Source of the DNA: Bifidobacterium breve
GTDB lineage: Bacteria > Actinomycetota > Thermoleophilia > Gaiellales > F1-60-MAGs149
DNA: 36,864 bases
Direction: 5' to 3'
Assembly (NCBI GenBank): GCA_945877865.1
Contig: CAMDVX010000003.1
Location: 1 to 36,864 of the forward strand
Below the pieces are notes generated by a model that worked only from the letters and a program-made list of their open reading frames with translations, had not been told where the DNA came from and did no database searches. Shown here in pieces: positions 1-7,250 of this stretch (positions are counted from its first letter, which is position 1; each line of letters begins with the position of its first letter). Position numbers and translations under genes: made by a program.

Positions 1-3000
1 GGCAGCGACCGCTCGCCGGCGACGTTGACTGCGATCGTCGTAAACCAGTACGTCGTCCCATCGACGAGGCCTGTGATCGTGCACGTCCCGCTCGCTCCGC
101 TGATCCCGCACGAGTGCACCCCATCGCTCGCCATGATGGTCAGCGAGGCGGCACCCGCGACGGGTGACGCAACAGTCACCGTGGCTGTCCCCGGGCTGAC
201 GACCGCCGTCGGGGCCACCGTCGGGCCGGCGAAGGTGTAGTTGATTGGCCACGTGCCGTAGGTCCCCGGCACGGTGCCCCAGCCGGTCGCCGAGCGCAGG
301 ACGTGAATGGTGGCGTTAGGCGCGGTGCCGTAGACGCTGCTACCGCTGCTTGATGGCGAATCGCCTCGAAAGTAGATATCGCGGAGGTTGGGAACGTCAA
401 GAAAGTAGATTCCCCGGTGATCACTTGTCGGCCGGGCGGTGGTGAGGCCGCTGCCGAAGCTGACCCAGGCGAGGTTCGGTATGCGGTGGAAGTGGTCGCC
501 GATGAAGGTGACGCTGTCAGGCAGCGCGACGCTGCGCAGCCGTGCCGCGTCGGAAAACGTGCCCCATCCCAGGCTCGCAATACCCTCTTCGACTACGACC
601 GTCAGCATCGTCGCTCCGCCGAAACCCGAGTTCTGAATCGCGCGCACCGTCAGCGGCGATCCTCCGGGCGGCGTTACGGTCGCCGGCACGACGACGTGGT
701 CGGGCAGGTCTGCGGTATAGCCATTGCTCGGTACGTACGCCACCGAACCCGGCGTGACGTACACGTACTTGATGCCGCCCTGCACGAGGGTATGGCCCGT
801 GATGGGATCCGACGCCGGCGACACCGGTGAATCGCCGCTCGAGTTGCGCCCAACCGCCGTAAACGTGTGCGCCACATCGTCCGCGAGCGCGTTCAGAAAG
901 CACGATCCCGACTGGCCGGTGATGGTGCAGGTAGCACCACCTGGACTAGCCGTGACTACCACCGACAGCGCATTGTGCACCGGCGTCGCGACCGTCACCT
1001 TGACGATCGCCGTCGTCCAGCCCTGATTGCACGCTTGGAGGTTCTCGGAATCTGCCAACGAGCACATCTCGACCGTCGGCTTGACCGGCGCCGTATCGGG
1101 CGTGGGGGTGATCGGCAGCGCAGCGGTCATCACATTCCCGCTCGTCGAGACAGCGACGAAGCGACCCTCCCCGAACGTGAGGCTCGACCACCCGCTTGAG
1201 TAATCCCTGCTGCTGTTGCCGCTGTCGCCAAGCTCCTCCTGCCAGGTAATGCCATCCCTGCTGGACGCCACCATGTCGTGCCAGTTGAGGACCCACTGGC
1301 CGATCTGCGTCCACACGCCGTTGCCATACTCCGACCCCCCCCACGGGAGCATCCACCGCATGGCCGGCGGAGAGCGTAGCGTCCAATTGACCCCATCGGG
1401 GCTCCACTTGATGATGCCGTTCTGAGCAGCCCAGAGGTAGTTCCCGTTGCCGTAGGAGATGTGCGAGCCCGAGTCGTACTGACCGAGATAGCTACTTGAC
1501 TGTATCGTCCAGACGATGCCGTCCGGGCTCGTCGCAACGTGTTGGTAGGCGACCGCTACGAAGAGGTTATCTCCGTACACCACGTCATTCCAGATGTCTA
1601 AGCTACCCGTATCGGCCCGCAGAGTCCACGAGGCTCCATCCGTGCTCGTCATGAAGCGCCCATTCCGCCCCACCACCACGAATCGCCCATTGCCGAACGT
1701 GAGATGTGAGCCCCAGTCGATCATGGTGCGGTTGCCTGACGACCACGTGTCGCCATGATCCGTCGTCACGGCCCAGTCGTCGCCGCTCATCACGACAAAC
1801 CGCCCGTTGCCATAGGCCACGTCGATCGAGCCGTCCCAGCTGAGTCGCCAGGCCGGCCCGGTCTTCGTCGTCCAGGTGACACCGTCCGGGCTGGTCATGA
1901 CGGCCCCGCTTGGGCCAATCGCCATGAAGATGCCATCCCCGTAGGTGACCGCTTTCCACCAGCTCAAGCTCGCCGGTGTCCGGACCGTCCAGCCCGCGTC
2001 GGTCCAGGCAAGCGGGATGCCACCGATCGTGCCCGGGACCACCCAACCGTCCGTGTACGTCGAGACGTGCGCAGTCGCAGCAGCGTGGCTGCCAGCGAAC
2101 GCGTCGGCTGCAGCCGTCGGCGCGCTGCCAAGCAGGCTCACGTTCGTCAGCGTCGGAATGCTTGCAAACGCCTGCGCACCAATCGTCGCGACATCCGCAG
2201 CCAGCGTCACTGCACCCGTTAGCCCCGTCGCGCCGCTAAATGCGTTCGCGCCAATCGTCGTGACGCCCGCCGGAATCGTCAGCGACCCCGTGAGACCCGT
2301 ATCGCCCGCGAACGCACCCGCACCGATGGCGGTGACCGCACAGCCCGCCGCGCACACCGTGCCCGCCACGGTCGCGCTCGTCGGCAGCGTCCAATCGTGC
2401 GCCACGACGCTGCTTGGCCCGGTCAGCGTAATCGTCTCCGGTCGCGTGCCATTGGCCGACCACGCCACGCCGCTGACAGGATCCGTGCCCGTCGTGGGGT
2501 TCGGCGTGACTGCCGACGAGGCGCTCGATGGCGCCGAATCCGTCGAGCCGTTGTTCGCCTTCGCCGTAAACGCGTACGACGCACCATTTACGAGACCGCT
2601 AATCGTGCAACGATCCGCCGTCGCGCTGATGGCGCACGTCGTCGTCGGATCACCATTGACGGCAATCTGCACCGAGTAGCCCGCGCTGACCGGCGCACCC
2701 ACGACGACCACCGCAGCCGCATTACGCGCAATTGCCGTCGGTGCAGACGGCACCGCAATTGGCCGCACCCCTGCCGAGGCAGGCGACGGCGACGAGGAAC
2801 CATCCGCATTCGACGCCACCACGACAAACCCGTACGCCTGATTGCCGAGCCCCGACACCGTGCAGCTCGTCGCCGGCACCGTCACCGTGCACGTGCGCCC
2901 CTCGGGGACTGACGTCACCACGTACGCGGTGGCAGGCGCGCCGCTCGACGCCGCGGTCACCGTCACAGCCGCCGACGCAGCGCCTGCCACCGCCGACGGC

Positions 3001-6000
3001 GCCACCACCGCATCGGGCGCCAACATGTCCGACGTCGCCACGACCGACGAGCCTGTTCCAACCGCCGCAAACACCCCGTTGCCATACGCCACGCCCATCC
3101 AGCTCACGCTGCCCGGCAGCGTCTCGCTCGACCACGTCACCCCATCTGCGCTCGTCATCGCCCGATTCGACGCAGGCCCATCCGACACCGCCACAAAGCG
3201 ACCGTTGCCATACGCCACGGATTCCCACTGCGAGGCGGCCGCCGCCGCCCGTGGGGACCACGCCACGCCATCCACGCTCGTCATCACCTGCCACTGCAGC
3301 GAGTCATACCCCACCGCCACATACACGCCCCCACCGTATGCCACGGACCGCCAATCGCTAAACACGCCTCGGCTCGACGACCAGGACACGCCGTCATCCG
3401 TGCTGACTGCCACCCGATGAGCACCACTCGTCGCAACCGCCACAAAGCGCCCGTCGCCGTACGTGACCGCGCGCCAGCTATCTCCCGCATCGCCGCCCAA
3501 CACCGCCCGCAAGGTCCAGCTCGCACCATCGGTGCTCGTCATCACCGCGCCCGCCAGCCCGACCGCCACGAACGTTCCGTGCCCAAACGCCACGCTGCGC
3601 CACGACGCCACCGGAGCCGTCTGACGCACCCAAGTCGCACCATCGCTGCTCGTCATCACCGCGCCCGCCTGCCCGACCGCCACAAACTGCCCCGCGCCAA
3701 ACGCAACCCGATACCACGCCGCCGCCGACCCCGGCACCGTTCGCGCCGTCCACGTCAACCCGTCGACGCTGCTCATCGCCCCACCATCAAGACCGACCGC
3801 CACAAAGACCCCACCGCCGAACGCGACATCAGACCAGGTATGCACTCCGGCTGCATGCGCAATCCAGCGGCTCGGCGTCACGCTCGCCGATGCGGCCGAT
3901 GCCGCCGACGCACCATCCGCATTCGACGCCACCGCCGTAAACGTGTAGGCCGTCCCGTTGGCCAGACCTGTCACTACACACGATCCTGCTGCACCCGACA
4001 CCACGCACGTCTGCGACCCGCTGCCGCTCGCGGTCACCAGATACGACACCGGCACGCCACCCGAGCCCGCTGCCATCGTCACCGTCGCCCGAGCATTCCC
4101 CGCGTAGACGACCGGCGTCACCGGCACGCCCGGCGGATACAGCGGCGTCACGCTGTTGGAGGCCACGGAAGCCGACGAGGTGCCCGCGCTGTTGGTCGCG
4201 GTCGCGGTAAACGTATGCGGCACAATCGACAGCCCCGACACCACGCAGCTACCCGACGCGCCCGTCACCGTGCACGTCGCCCCACCCGGGCTTTCCGTCA
4301 CCAAAAACGACGCTGCCACCCCACCCGAGCCCGACCCTGCAGCCACCGTCACCGTCGCGCTGCTACTGCCCCGCACCGCCACCGGCGCCGCCGGCACATC
4401 CGGCACCGGCAACGGCGTCGCTGCGCTCGACGCCAACGACGCCGACGTCGCACCCGCCAGATTCGACGCCACCGTCGTAAACGTATACGCCACACCATTC
4501 GTCAAGCCCGACACCTCACACATGCCCGAAGCACCCGACACCGAACACGTAACCGCGCCAGGCGACGACGTCACCACAAACCCCGTCGGCGGCCCACCCG
4601 ACCCCGACCCCGCACCCACCGACACCCGCACAGCCCCATCACGCGCCACCACACCCGACACCACCGGTCGATCCGGCACCACATCCGGCACCACGCTATT
4701 AGACGCCGGCGACGCCACCGAATCACCCACCGCACTGCGCGCCACCGCCGAGAACGTATACGACTGATACCCAAGCCCACTCACCACACAGCTCGTCGCC
4801 GGCACCGTAATCGTGCACACCGCACCGCCCGGACTCGCCGTCACCAGATACGACACCGCCTGCGGACCATCCACCGCCGGCACCACCGACACCACCGCCG
4901 ACGCCGTCGCCGCCACCGCCACCGGCGCCGCCACCGGAGTCGGCTCCACCGTATTCGACGTCATCACCACCGAACCACTCATACCACCCAGCTGCAACGC
5001 CACGAACGTGCCATGCCCATACGCCACCGCATGCCAATTCGCCGATAGGCCCATCGACCCCGTCGTCCACGTGATCCCATCAGCGCTCATCATGTAAGCG
5101 GCCCCAACCCCATACACCGCCACAAAATGCCCATTGCCAAACGCAATCGACTGCCCATTCTGACCACCCGACACCGCGCGCCTCGTCCACGTCACCCCAT
5201 CCGGACTCGTCAGCGCATCGTCGGCGTGATCATTCGTCACCACAAACAGCCCATTGCCATACGCCACCCCAGCAAACGTTGACGAAATCGGCGTCGCCCG
5301 CGCCGTCCACGACACACCATCCGTGCTCGTCATCACCTGATCAACCGCCGGCACGCTCGACCCCGTCTGCGCCACCGCCACAAACCGCCCATTGCCATAC
5401 GTCACCGCCTGCCACGGATTGCTCGCCGCAGCCACCCGCGCCGTCCACGTCACCCCATCCGGACTCGTCATCACCCGATTACCCGACCCACCCGCCGCCA
5501 CCGCCACAAACTGACCACCGCCATACGTCACCTCGGCCCAATACATCGACGCTGCCGACGAAGGCGACGACCGCGCAGTCCACGTCACACCATCCGGACT
5601 CGACGCCACCACCCCATTCGCACCCACCGCCACAAACACACCAGCACCAAACGCAACCGAGTAATAATCCCCACTCGCCAAACCACTCCGCACCGTCCAC
5701 GTCACCCCATCGTCATCACTCGACATCGCCCGCGGCTCACTGTTCTCATAAATCCTGACAGCCACAAACCGACCCACCCCCGACCCCACACCCGGCCCAT
5801 ACGCCACCCCAGCCCAACTCCCCGCCACACCCGTCCGCTGAATCCACTCCGCCGGCGTCACGCTATTTGACGCCACCGACGCCAACGACGAACCATCCGC
5901 ATTCGACGCCACCGCCGTAAACGTGTACGCCGTCCCATTCAAAAGCCCCGACACCACACACGAACCCGCCGCACCCGACACCACACACGTCTGCGACCCA

Positions 6001-6545
6001 CCACCACTCGCCGTCACCAGATACGACACCGGCACGCCACCCGACCCCGCCACCACCGTCACCGACGCACTCCGCGAACCCGCCACCGCCACCACCGACG
6101 CCGGCACACCCGGCGGCGACAACGGCAGATAGGTATACGCCCCTACCTCCGTCACAGCGGCGCCAGCCTGCGTCACGGTCACATCAACCAGCCCCGAGGC
6201 CGCGCCCGCCGGCGTCGTAAACGTCACCTGCGTCGCGGAATCCACCGAGACGCCCGTCGCTGCCACACCATCGACCGTGACCGTCACGGGTGCGGCAAAG
6301 CCCGTGCCCGCCATCCTCACCACGGTGCCACCCGCAACGCTCCCCGCTGACGGCGTCAGCGTGCTGATGGTTGGCGGCACCGGGCTCGCATCAGCGGTCG
6401 CCGCGATCAGCACGAGCACGAGCATCACGCAGACCGCAAGCAGCTCCGACAGGCCAAACGGCAGCCGCCGCCGCCAGCGGCCACCACGGCTCGGCTCAAG
6501 CGAGCCGCCACCGTCGACCCGATCGGCAGCTCCACCGGGCTCCAT
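1..6545 (-). CDS. Giant modular membrane-anchored/secreted protein (TIG + FN3-like + beta-propeller-like + BspA-like LRR repeats), C-terminus beyond window
   Basis: Manual reverse-strand translation is one uninterrupted frame from ATG at 6545 (MEPGGAADRVDGG...LPFGLSELLAVCVMLVLVLIAATADASPVPPTISTLTPSAGSVAGGTVV...) to base 1 with no stop; absent from the ORF track because it has no stop in the window. Repeated SWRSVAFGHGTFVAVGLAGAVMTSTDGASWTLR and TCTVTGASGSCVVSGLxNGTxYTFTAVASN motifs. Confidence 0.92.
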   Translation of the reverse strand, partial: MEPGGAADRVDGGGSLEPSRGGRWRRRLPFGLSELLAVCVMLVLVLIAATADASPVPPTISTLTPSAGSVAGGTVVRMAGTGFAAPVTVTVDGVAATGVSVDSATQVTFTTPAGAASGLVDVTVTQAGAAVTEVGAYTYLPLSPPGVPASVVAVAGSRSASVTVVAGSGGVPVSYLVTASGGGSQTCVVSGAAGSCVVSGLLNGTAYTFTAVASNADGSSLASVASNSVTPAEWIQRTGVAGSWAGVAYGPGVGSGVGRFVAVRIYENSEPRAMSSDDDGVTWTVRSGLASGDYYSVAFGAGVFVAVGANGVVASSPDGVTWTARSSPSSAASMYWAEVTYGGGQFVAVAAGGSGNRVMTSPDGVTWTARVAAASNPWQAVTYGNGRFVAVAQTGSSVPAVDQVMTSTDGVSWTARATPISSTFAGVAYGNGLFVVTNDHADDALTSPDGVTWTRRAVSGGQNGQSIAFGNGHFVAVYGVGAAYMMSADGITWTTGSMGLSANWHAVAYGHGTFVALQLGGMSGSVVMTSNTVEPTPVAAPVAVAATASAVVSVVPAVDGPQAVSYLVTASPGGAVCTITVPATSCVVSGLGYQSYTFSAVARSAVGDSVASPASNSVVPDVVPDRPVVSGVVARDGAVRVSVGAGSGSGGPPTGFVVTSSPGAVTCSVSGASGMCEVSGLTNGVAYTFTTVASNLAGATSASLASSAATPLPVPDVPAAPVAVRGSSSATVTVAAGSGSGGVAASFLVTESPGGATCTVTGASGSCVVSGLSIVPHTFTATATNSAGTSSASVASNSVTPLYPPGVPVTPVVYAGNARATVTMAAGSGGVPVSYLVTASGSGSQTCVVSGAAGSCVVTGLANGTAYTFTAVASNADGASAASAASASVTPSRWIAHAAGVHTWSDVAFGGGVFVAVGLDGGAMSSVDGLTWTARTVPGSAAAWYRVAFGAGQFVAVGQAGAVMTSSDGATWVRQTAPVASWRSVAFGHGTFVAVGLAGAVMTSTDGASWTLRAVLGGDAGDSWRAVTYGDGRFVAVATSGAHRVAVSTDDGVSWSSSRGVFSDWRSVAYGGGVYVAVGYDSLQWQVMTSVDGVAWSPRAAAAASQWESVAYGNGRFVAVSDGPASNRAMTSADGVTWSSETLPGSVSWMGVAYGNGVFAAVGTGSSVVATSDMLAPDAVVAPSAVAGAASAAVTVTAASSGAPATAYVVTSVPEGRTCTVTVPATSCTVSGLGNQAYGFVVVASNADGSSSPSPASAGVRPIAVPSAPTAIARNAAAVVVVGAPVSAGYSVQIAVNGDPTTTCAISATADRCTISGLVNGASYAFTAKANNGSTDSAPSSASSAVTPNPTTGTDPVSGVAWSANGTRPETITLTGPSSVVAHDWTLPTSATVAGTVCAAGCAVTAIGAGAFAGDTGLTGSLTIPAGVTTIGANAFSGATGLTGAVTLAADVATIGAQAFASIPTLTNVSLLGSAPTAAADAFAGSHAAATAHVSTYTDGWVVPGTIGGIPLAWTDAGWTVRTPASLSWWKAVTYGDGIFMAIGPSGAVMTSPDGVTWTTKTGPAWRLSWDGSIDVAYGNGRFVVMSGDDWAVTTDHGDTWSSGNRTMIDWGSHLTFGNGRFVVVGRNGRFMTSTDGASWTLRADTGSLDIWNDVVYGDNLFVAVAYQHVATSPDGIVWTIQSSSYLGQYDSGSHISYGNGNYLWAAQNGIIKWSPDGVNWTLRSPPAMRWMLPWGGSEYGNGVWTQIGQWVLNWHDMVASSRDGITWQEELGDSGNSSRDYSSGWSSLTFGEGRFVAVSTSGNVMTAALPITPTPDTAPVKPTVEMCSLADSENLQACNQGWTTAIVKVTVATPVHNALSVVVTASPGGATCTITGQSGSCFLNALADDVAHTFTAVGRNSSGDSPVSPASDPITGHTLVQGGIKYVYVTPGSVAYVPSNGYTADLPDHVVVPATVTPPGGSPLTVRAIQNSGFGGATMLTVVVEEGIASLGWGTFSDAARLRSVALPDSVTFIGDHFHRIPNLAWVSFGSGLTTARPTSDHRGIYFLDVPNLRDIYFRGDSPSSSGSSVYGTAPNATIHVLRSATGWGTVPGTYGTWPINYTFAGPTVAPTAVVSPGTATVTVASPVAGAASLTIMASDGVHSCGISGASGTCTITGLVDGTTYWFTTIAVNVAGERSL
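1115..2005 (-). repeat. Propeller-like block 3: seven more divergent repeats
   Basis: Seven units (SWWKAVTYGDGIFMAIGPSGAVMTSPDGVTWTTK ... GWSSLTFGEGRFVAVSTSGNVMTAA). Confidence 0.75.
3040..3875 (-). repeat. Propeller-like block 2: seven repeats
   Basis: Seven consecutive units (TWSDVAFGGGVFVAVGLDGGAMSSVDGLTWTAR ... SWMGVAYGNGVFAAVGTGSSVVATSD). Confidence 0.8.
4940..5860 (-). repeat. Propeller-like block 1: seven ~40-aa 'W..VAYGNGxFVAV...MTS.DGVTWT' repeats
   Basis: Seven consecutive repeat units read from translation of the minus strand. Confidence 0.8.
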
Positions 6546-7250
6546 CACGCTGCCAGCCAGGTCAGTCAACCGCAAAATCCAGTGGCCCGGGCAGGTCCGT
6601 CGACTGCCCACCAGCCACGCCGGTCCGTCCTGCCATCCACGACCTTGATCCGTGGGGAGCGACTCAACCGGCGAGCATGGTGCGCGCTCCTGCAACCGCT
6701 CATGGCTTGCGATCGCTCGCTGCGAAGCGCCGCGTGCCACGCAAACCGCGCGCTGGCGGTGCGCAAGGCAACATAGTGTGAGAGCACGCGTTTCACAGGT
6801 GTCACTACGCTTCTGGCGGAGGAAATCCTGCCCACCCGACGGCGACGGCCGCCCTCATCAGCGAGCGAGCGCGGACGCTCACTGCGCGCACCCGCAAGGC
6901 CCGCGTGTGCAGGGCCATTTTGCGCGCGACACAGAGGCGAACGAGCGGACAGGAAGGCCATCCGCGACCCGCGAAGGGCCGCAACGGCCACAGGCGCGCG
7001 ACGCACGCAGATCCTGCCGCTCCTCCCGCCAAAACCTCTTGTCACAGCGATCTCCTCGCCGATGTCGTTCGGGCTGCCCCATCACCGAATGCGACAGCTC
7101 CCTAATAGCGGCGATCAACCGCGATGTTCACTCCCCCCAATGTAGCAGGATAAAAATCACAAGTGTGTGCAAGAAGTCAACCTGTCGCTAGACCACGCAC
7201 CCACGCACGAGTCCCGCTACCGCTCCACAGACCGAAACGCGCCCGCAGGC

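Follow-up and report, generated by a model that had tools for sequence, protein, structure and literature searches.

A gene cut by a contig end encodes a predicted modular secreted protein with three seven-bladed propellers of short Asp-box repeats

What kind of protein is encoded by a very long reverse-strand reading frame that runs off the end of a contig and repeats the same short motif in three separate blocks? The window analyzed here, a 36,864-nucleotide stretch of DNA, is the whole of contig CAMDVX010000003.1 (positions 1-36864; C3) from a draft genome of 1.49 Mb (114 contigs, 83% complete). From the first ATG, at position 6545 of the minus strand, a single open frame ran for 2,181 codons to base 3, reaching the window edge without a stop, and the open frame extended upstream as far as a GTG at 6740. 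A preliminary description of this DNA had likewise reported a reverse-strand frame of more than 2,180 codons missing from the open reading frame list, and we found the gene absent because the list requires a stop codon and the contig end cuts the gene; the C-terminus is missing because the gene runs off the end of C3. The three repeat blocks (A, B and C in reading order) are well supported as seven-bladed Asp-box beta-propellers, with predicted rings for A and C and an assignment through alignment for B.

The repeat contains the motif S-x-D-G-x-T-W, which lacks one residue of the Asp-box (S-x-D-x-G-x-T-W) and fits the pattern S/t-x-D/n-x-x-x-W/f/y of the short Asp-box, or s-Asp-box (Quistgaard and Thirup 2009, PMC2716378). 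Judged by this pattern, the repeat is a short Asp-box, so the blocks are Asp-box propellers. All 18 complete blades in the window (18/18) carried an Asp-box or s-Asp-box, mostly the short form, with one blade per block also readable as canonical (A blade 1, B blade 4, C blade 2). Relatives were collected by one scan of genome contigs (80 loci) and one of viral contigs (79 loci), and about 1,491 complete blades across the loci comprised 1,447 with the short form with G, 16 with the short form without G and 7 with the canonical form, using a pattern that prefers the short reading when a blade fits both. The 2009 survey described propeller s-Asp-boxes mainly in five-bladed enzymes of glycoside hydrolase (GH) families GH32 and GH43, usually in one or two copies, and a single s-Asp-box inside an Asp-box propeller (3sil) (PMC2716378). 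The propellers here share with the Asp-box propellers of that survey the S/T-x-D-x-x-x-W motif in each blade's loop, n-1 motifs per ring, "velcro" closure and four-stranded blades, but differ from its s-Asp-box propellers in forming rings of seven, almost wholly of the short form, without conserved catalytic residues. Within the library searched, the term s-Asp-box occurred in no paper other than PMC2716378.

The number of blades was counted with a blade hidden Markov model (HMM) that was seeded with this genome's four propellers and then iterated over the related loci. It found exactly seven units in each block, at residues 237-531, 900-1172 and 1520-1807 (about 4953-5849, 3027-3869 and 1122-1991 in window coordinates). 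In all three blocks (3/3) six motif-bearing blades were followed by a seventh half-blade ending before the motif, and an extra strand with an aromatic residue preceded blade 1 (EWIQR, RWIAH and GWTVR), which together indicate the usual velcro closure of a propeller. The same signature recurred among the relatives, with the last blade lacking the motif in 134 of 146 blocks of 7n units and an aromatic residue before the first blade in 139 of 146. Exactly seven units were present in 123 of 148 uncut arrays (same HMM; mostly related loci), so the counts of seven are not chance, while another nine of the 148 had 14, 21 or 28. Of the 82 arrays that ranked below the best at their locus, and hence were not picked by likeness to a seven-blade query, 70 also had seven units, so the count is not merely an artefact of hits to such a query.

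Blocks A and C were modeled with AlphaFold2. From 58 aligned sequences, block A was predicted as a closed seven-bladed ring of 28 strands (pLDDT 91.9, pTM 0.92). Block C, although no other block has diverged as far, gave the same fold and strand number (pLDDT 87.2, pTM 0.89), while block B aligned to A along its entire length with 45-47% identity. The best PDB fold matches of both models were structures of Ycf48 (2xbg, 5oj3, 5oj5, 8am5), a photosystem II assembly factor with a seven-bladed Asp-box propeller, at 12-18% identity in the aligned region, and a sequence profile found Ycf48 independently (3e-8, or 3e-4 with a larger alignment). Since the AlphaFold2 alignments consisted of seven-unit relatives, the models are tied to the blade count, whereas the Ycf48 match and the closure signature are independent of it. 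The preliminary description had placed the motif W..VAYGNG...DG.TWT seven times in each of three blocks and had suggested three seven-bladed propellers. The recurrence, the block coordinates and the sevenfold count all stood after profile counting and no non-propeller fold appeared, so that a guess made by eye is now a well-supported fold assignment; the identity of the motif as a short Asp-box had been missed.

The likeness to named families was distant. Ycf48 is the single stand-alone propeller of a lipoprotein, with Asp-boxes that we take to be canonical rather than short, and the 12-18% identity of the window propellers is a distant likeness of sequence and fold that does not amount to orthology with the Ycf48 family. 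No closer relative with a solved structure was found in the PDB copy searched. Pfam matches to DUF6242 (PF19755; 32.2 bits, gathering cut-off 29) and EPTP (PF03736; 24.5 bits, cut-off 21) lay inside the repeat blocks, and most bacterial relatives also matched one or both families, in each case over parts of the models only; neither model describes a ring of short Asp-boxes in its entirety. LGI-type EPTP proteins, which animals secrete, combine leucine-rich repeat (LRR) and EPTP domains.

Beside the propellers, the protein has about nine FN3 domains, two BspA-type LRR segments, a TIG domain and a signal sequence (Table 1). FN3, LRR_5 and TIG each scored above the Pfam cut-off, and the LRR_5 match (49 bits against a cut-off of 27.7, in two stretches) identifies the LRR segments as BspA-type. 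At the N-terminus an Arg-rich n-region and hydrophobic helix occupied residues 21-54, with the most hydrophobic 19-mers of the protein at residues 30-53; sequence inspection and hydropathy thus gave the Arg-rich n-region, hydrophobic core and small-residue end expected of an export signal. FN3-like and BspA-like segments between the blocks, and an N-terminus with an Arg-rich segment, a hydrophobic helix and a TIG-like domain, had all been proposed earlier and were recovered here. LRR_5 segments and FN3 spacers are shared with BspA-type LRR and FN3 surface proteins, whereas in the window protein they alternate with propellers in one chain.

Table 1. Features of the window protein and of related loci. 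Positions are those of the window unless a locus is named.
Feature	Position	Strand	Basis
Giant modular secreted protein, C-terminus cut by contig end	3..6545	minus	Open frame
Arg-rich segment and hydrophobic helix (FGLSELLAVCVMLVLVLIA), ending ATADA-S; Sec-type signal sequence	6384..6545	minus	Sequence, hydropathy
IPT/TIG domain, residues 58-139	6129..6374	minus	Pfam PF01833, 39.4 bits (cut-off 20.9)
FN3-like domain before propeller A	5850..6122	minus	Pfam, repeat family D13
Propeller A, seven blades, six with Asp-box, seventh completed by N-terminal EWIQR strand	4953..5849	minus	Blade HMM, AlphaFold2
Four tandem FN3-like domains	3873..4943	minus	Pfam, repeat families D7, D9, D11
Propeller B, seven blades, organised as A	3027..3869	minus	Blade HMM, alignment to A
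Two FN3-like domains	2496..3020	minus	Pfam, repeat analysis
BspA-type LRR segment 1	2010..2492	minus	Pfam PF13306, best at residues 1406-1485; PDB 4gt6, 5e-10 at residues 1385-1483
Propeller C, seven blades, most diverged, one canonical Asp-box (TTDHGDTW)	1122..2009	minus	Blade HMM, AlphaFold2
FN3-like domain	811..1103	minus	Sequence, repeat family D14
BspA-type LRR segment 2	234..810	minus	Second LRR_5 stretch counted by Pfam; position from sequence reading
FN3-like domain, cut by contig end	3..233	minus	Sequence reading
FN3 spacer pair, 84% identical	3873-4088 and 5853-6068	minus	Nucleotide repeat D13
Proteins with the ~90-residue C-terminal domain	L043:2-1642(-), L043:1659-3302(-), L246:1815-4469(+), L247:1293-4046(+), L215:1-2121(+), L245:1-590(+)		

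The relatives and the conserved positions bear on what such a protein might do. Relatives were found in Bacteroidota, Actinomycetota, Acidobacteriota, Patescibacteria, Spirochaetota, Pseudomonadota and other phyla. Among 41 bacterial relatives, ten carried a type IX secretion system (T9SS) sorting tail, three an OmpA domain and one an IPTL-CTERM signal, and several had fn3, Ig, PKD-like or cadherin-like domains. The second propeller protein of the same genome was complete, with a signal-like N-terminus, one seven-blade ring and a peptidoglycan-binding-type OmpA domain at its end. A sister species (G002) encoded a two-ring FN3 protein and, on another contig, a one-ring protein adjoining an LRR-FN3 protein; these two neighbours share a C-terminal domain of ~90 residues. 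On the viral side, frames with these propellers matched tail or tail-fibre families, and among the fold matches of the propellers were viral proteins whose names refer to endosialidase-type chaperone, tail collar or chitin-binding domains. Across 58 aligned propellers every column conserved in ≥80% of rows lay at a repeat position and held V, G, W, T, F, A, M, S, D, Y or N; all were structural, and no Arg, Glu, His or Lys column was conserved. A set of 1,729 blades showed conserved strand and Asp-box positions, with positions 10, 12 and 26 the most variable. The sorting and OmpA tails of the relatives, the viral tail-fibre families and the purely structural conserved columns therefore point to a secreted module that binds rather than catalyses.

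We thus favor, with a probability of roughly two in three, an adhesin-like surface protein that is secreted and binds its ligand multivalently. Its Sec signal would export it from the cell, and the TIG and FN3 domains would form a long spacer holding the three closed seven-bladed rings and the two BspA-type LRR blocks off the cell. The propellers would act as rigid rings in which conserved residues serve the fold only and the variable inter-strand loops provide ligand-binding faces, and three rings per chain would confer avidity towards repetitive ligands, for example a glycan, a polymer or the surface of another cell. Attachment to the cell surface would come from a C-terminal anchor beyond the contig end. 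The C-terminus of the window protein lies there as well, and the paralogue and relatives do carry OmpA or sorting tails; we infer export, attachment through the missing anchor and a function in adhesion or binding. Several points weigh against this assignment. The assembly lacks the anchor, surface display of the window protein is suggested by analogy with its relatives, and propellers are too versatile for the fold alone to fix a function. The distribution is also patchy, with propeller matches in 2 of 13 genomes of the genus (19 of 199 in the class), and the gene is therefore probably dispensable.

OmpA and FN3 searches of the same genome, together with inspection of the contig-end fragments C74, C2 and C14, gave no link to the missing C-terminus. 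The C74 fragment resembled the terminal part of a metalloprotease-type protein such as the one on C69, and the C2 fragment had an Ig-like end and no overlap of ≥12 bases with C3; both were rejected as candidates. The C14 fragment (L006:3-701, G000) was the N-terminus of another secreted TIG-repeat protein whose gene is also cut by a contig end.

The strongest alternative is a structural scaffold or assembly factor of the cell envelope, which would bind partners in the manner of Ycf48 rather than ligands outside the cell. Ycf48, the nearest solved relative by both profile and fold, is itself an assembly factor, and the paralogue with the OmpA tail would be located at the peptidoglycan. Set against this are the 12-18% identity to the Ycf48 structures in the aligned region, a distribution within the genus that suits a core envelope role poorly, and the viral fusions to tail-fibre domains, which fit ligand recognition; we regard such a role as possible yet rather unlikely. 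Considerably less probable is a secreted sialidase- or xyloglucanase-like glycosidase with the Asp-box propellers as its catalytic domain, a reading encouraged by the occurrence of Asp-box propellers typically in GH33, GH74, GH32 and GH43 (PMC2716378) and by one viral fold match named xyloglucan hydrolase. No conserved GH33- or GH74-type catalytic residues were found in the 58 aligned propellers, where the only conserved charged residue was the Asp of the Asp-box, and no glycoside hydrolase family was among the Pfam matches listed. The near-equivalence of the blades within a ring also leaves no special active-site blade. With no catalytic residues conserved, we rejected a catalytic function of the propellers. 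A decaying or misassembled array without function is scarcely credible since, although the contig end cuts the gene and repeats can misassemble, more than 2,180 codons are open, blades only 30-43% identical within a block keep their motif positions, and every block has exactly seven units.

As a modular secreted surface protein, the window protein is one more of a kind already known. What merits follow-up is the little-studied family behind it, a large set of uncharacterised bacterial and viral proteins, shared with phage tail proteins, that have no close solved structure and whose rings of seven consist of a motif variant recorded as propeller repeats by the 2009 survey (PMC2716378) for five-bladed enzymes only. 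Three rings per chain were also found in five bacterial loci (L051, L055, L075, L101, L118), so this layout is not unique to the window protein. These loci and the viral L129 and L140 share three to five rings of seven per chain, and L051 also has FN3 domains, but they differ from the window protein in phylum and in sorting tail, and no common order of spacer domains was established. Viral loci including L129, L136, L138 and L140 had up to 35 blades (five rings) in one chain, whereas the tail and tail-fibre matches noted above came from other viral frames. The long arrays inspected consisted mostly of sevens joined by linkers of ~30-130 residues, with the viral L202 and one frame of L138 as exceptions.

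Rings and spacers of the window protein differed in their divergence. The FN3 domains before A and before B were 84% identical over 216 nucleotides (77% over 95 residues), unlike propellers A and B themselves at 45-47%, so the two either have different histories or the spacers were homogenised by recombination; finding such spacers in one gene with propellers of ~45% identity suggests recent exchange or gene conversion. Blades of A and B with the same index were no closer (0.45) than shifted pairs (0.41-0.45), and the blade data therefore decide neither for whole-ring duplication nor for independent amplification as the origin of A, B and C. More speculatively, the short-Asp-box seven-bladed propeller may be a mobile recognition cassette of bacterial surface proteins and phage tail fibres in many phyla, moving as a whole ring while its loops diversify to change binding; we hold this to be doubtful.

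The ~90-residue C-terminal domain ended many long secreted proteins of the genus (proteases, LRR and propeller proteins), and seven of eight genomes had 3-13 matches each. Where a tail of 10-20 residues followed, the protein repeatedly ended in -VTG, and the domain could be a sorting or anchoring signal. Elsewhere in the class, L220:3167-13999 (G205 C37) held a frame of at least 3,610 amino acids that combines two rings of short Asp-boxes with further propeller-like repeats, Ig-like repeats and a long collagen-like tract (GATGSTG). The remainder of the window (7251-36316) resembled ordinary chromosomal genes, including those for an SDR, enoyl-CoA hydratase, thiolase, a catalase-peroxidase-type protein, CopC/CopD, isocitrate dehydrogenase and rhodanese, with sequences resembling a trp operon, by eye, around 14.7-21.4 kb.

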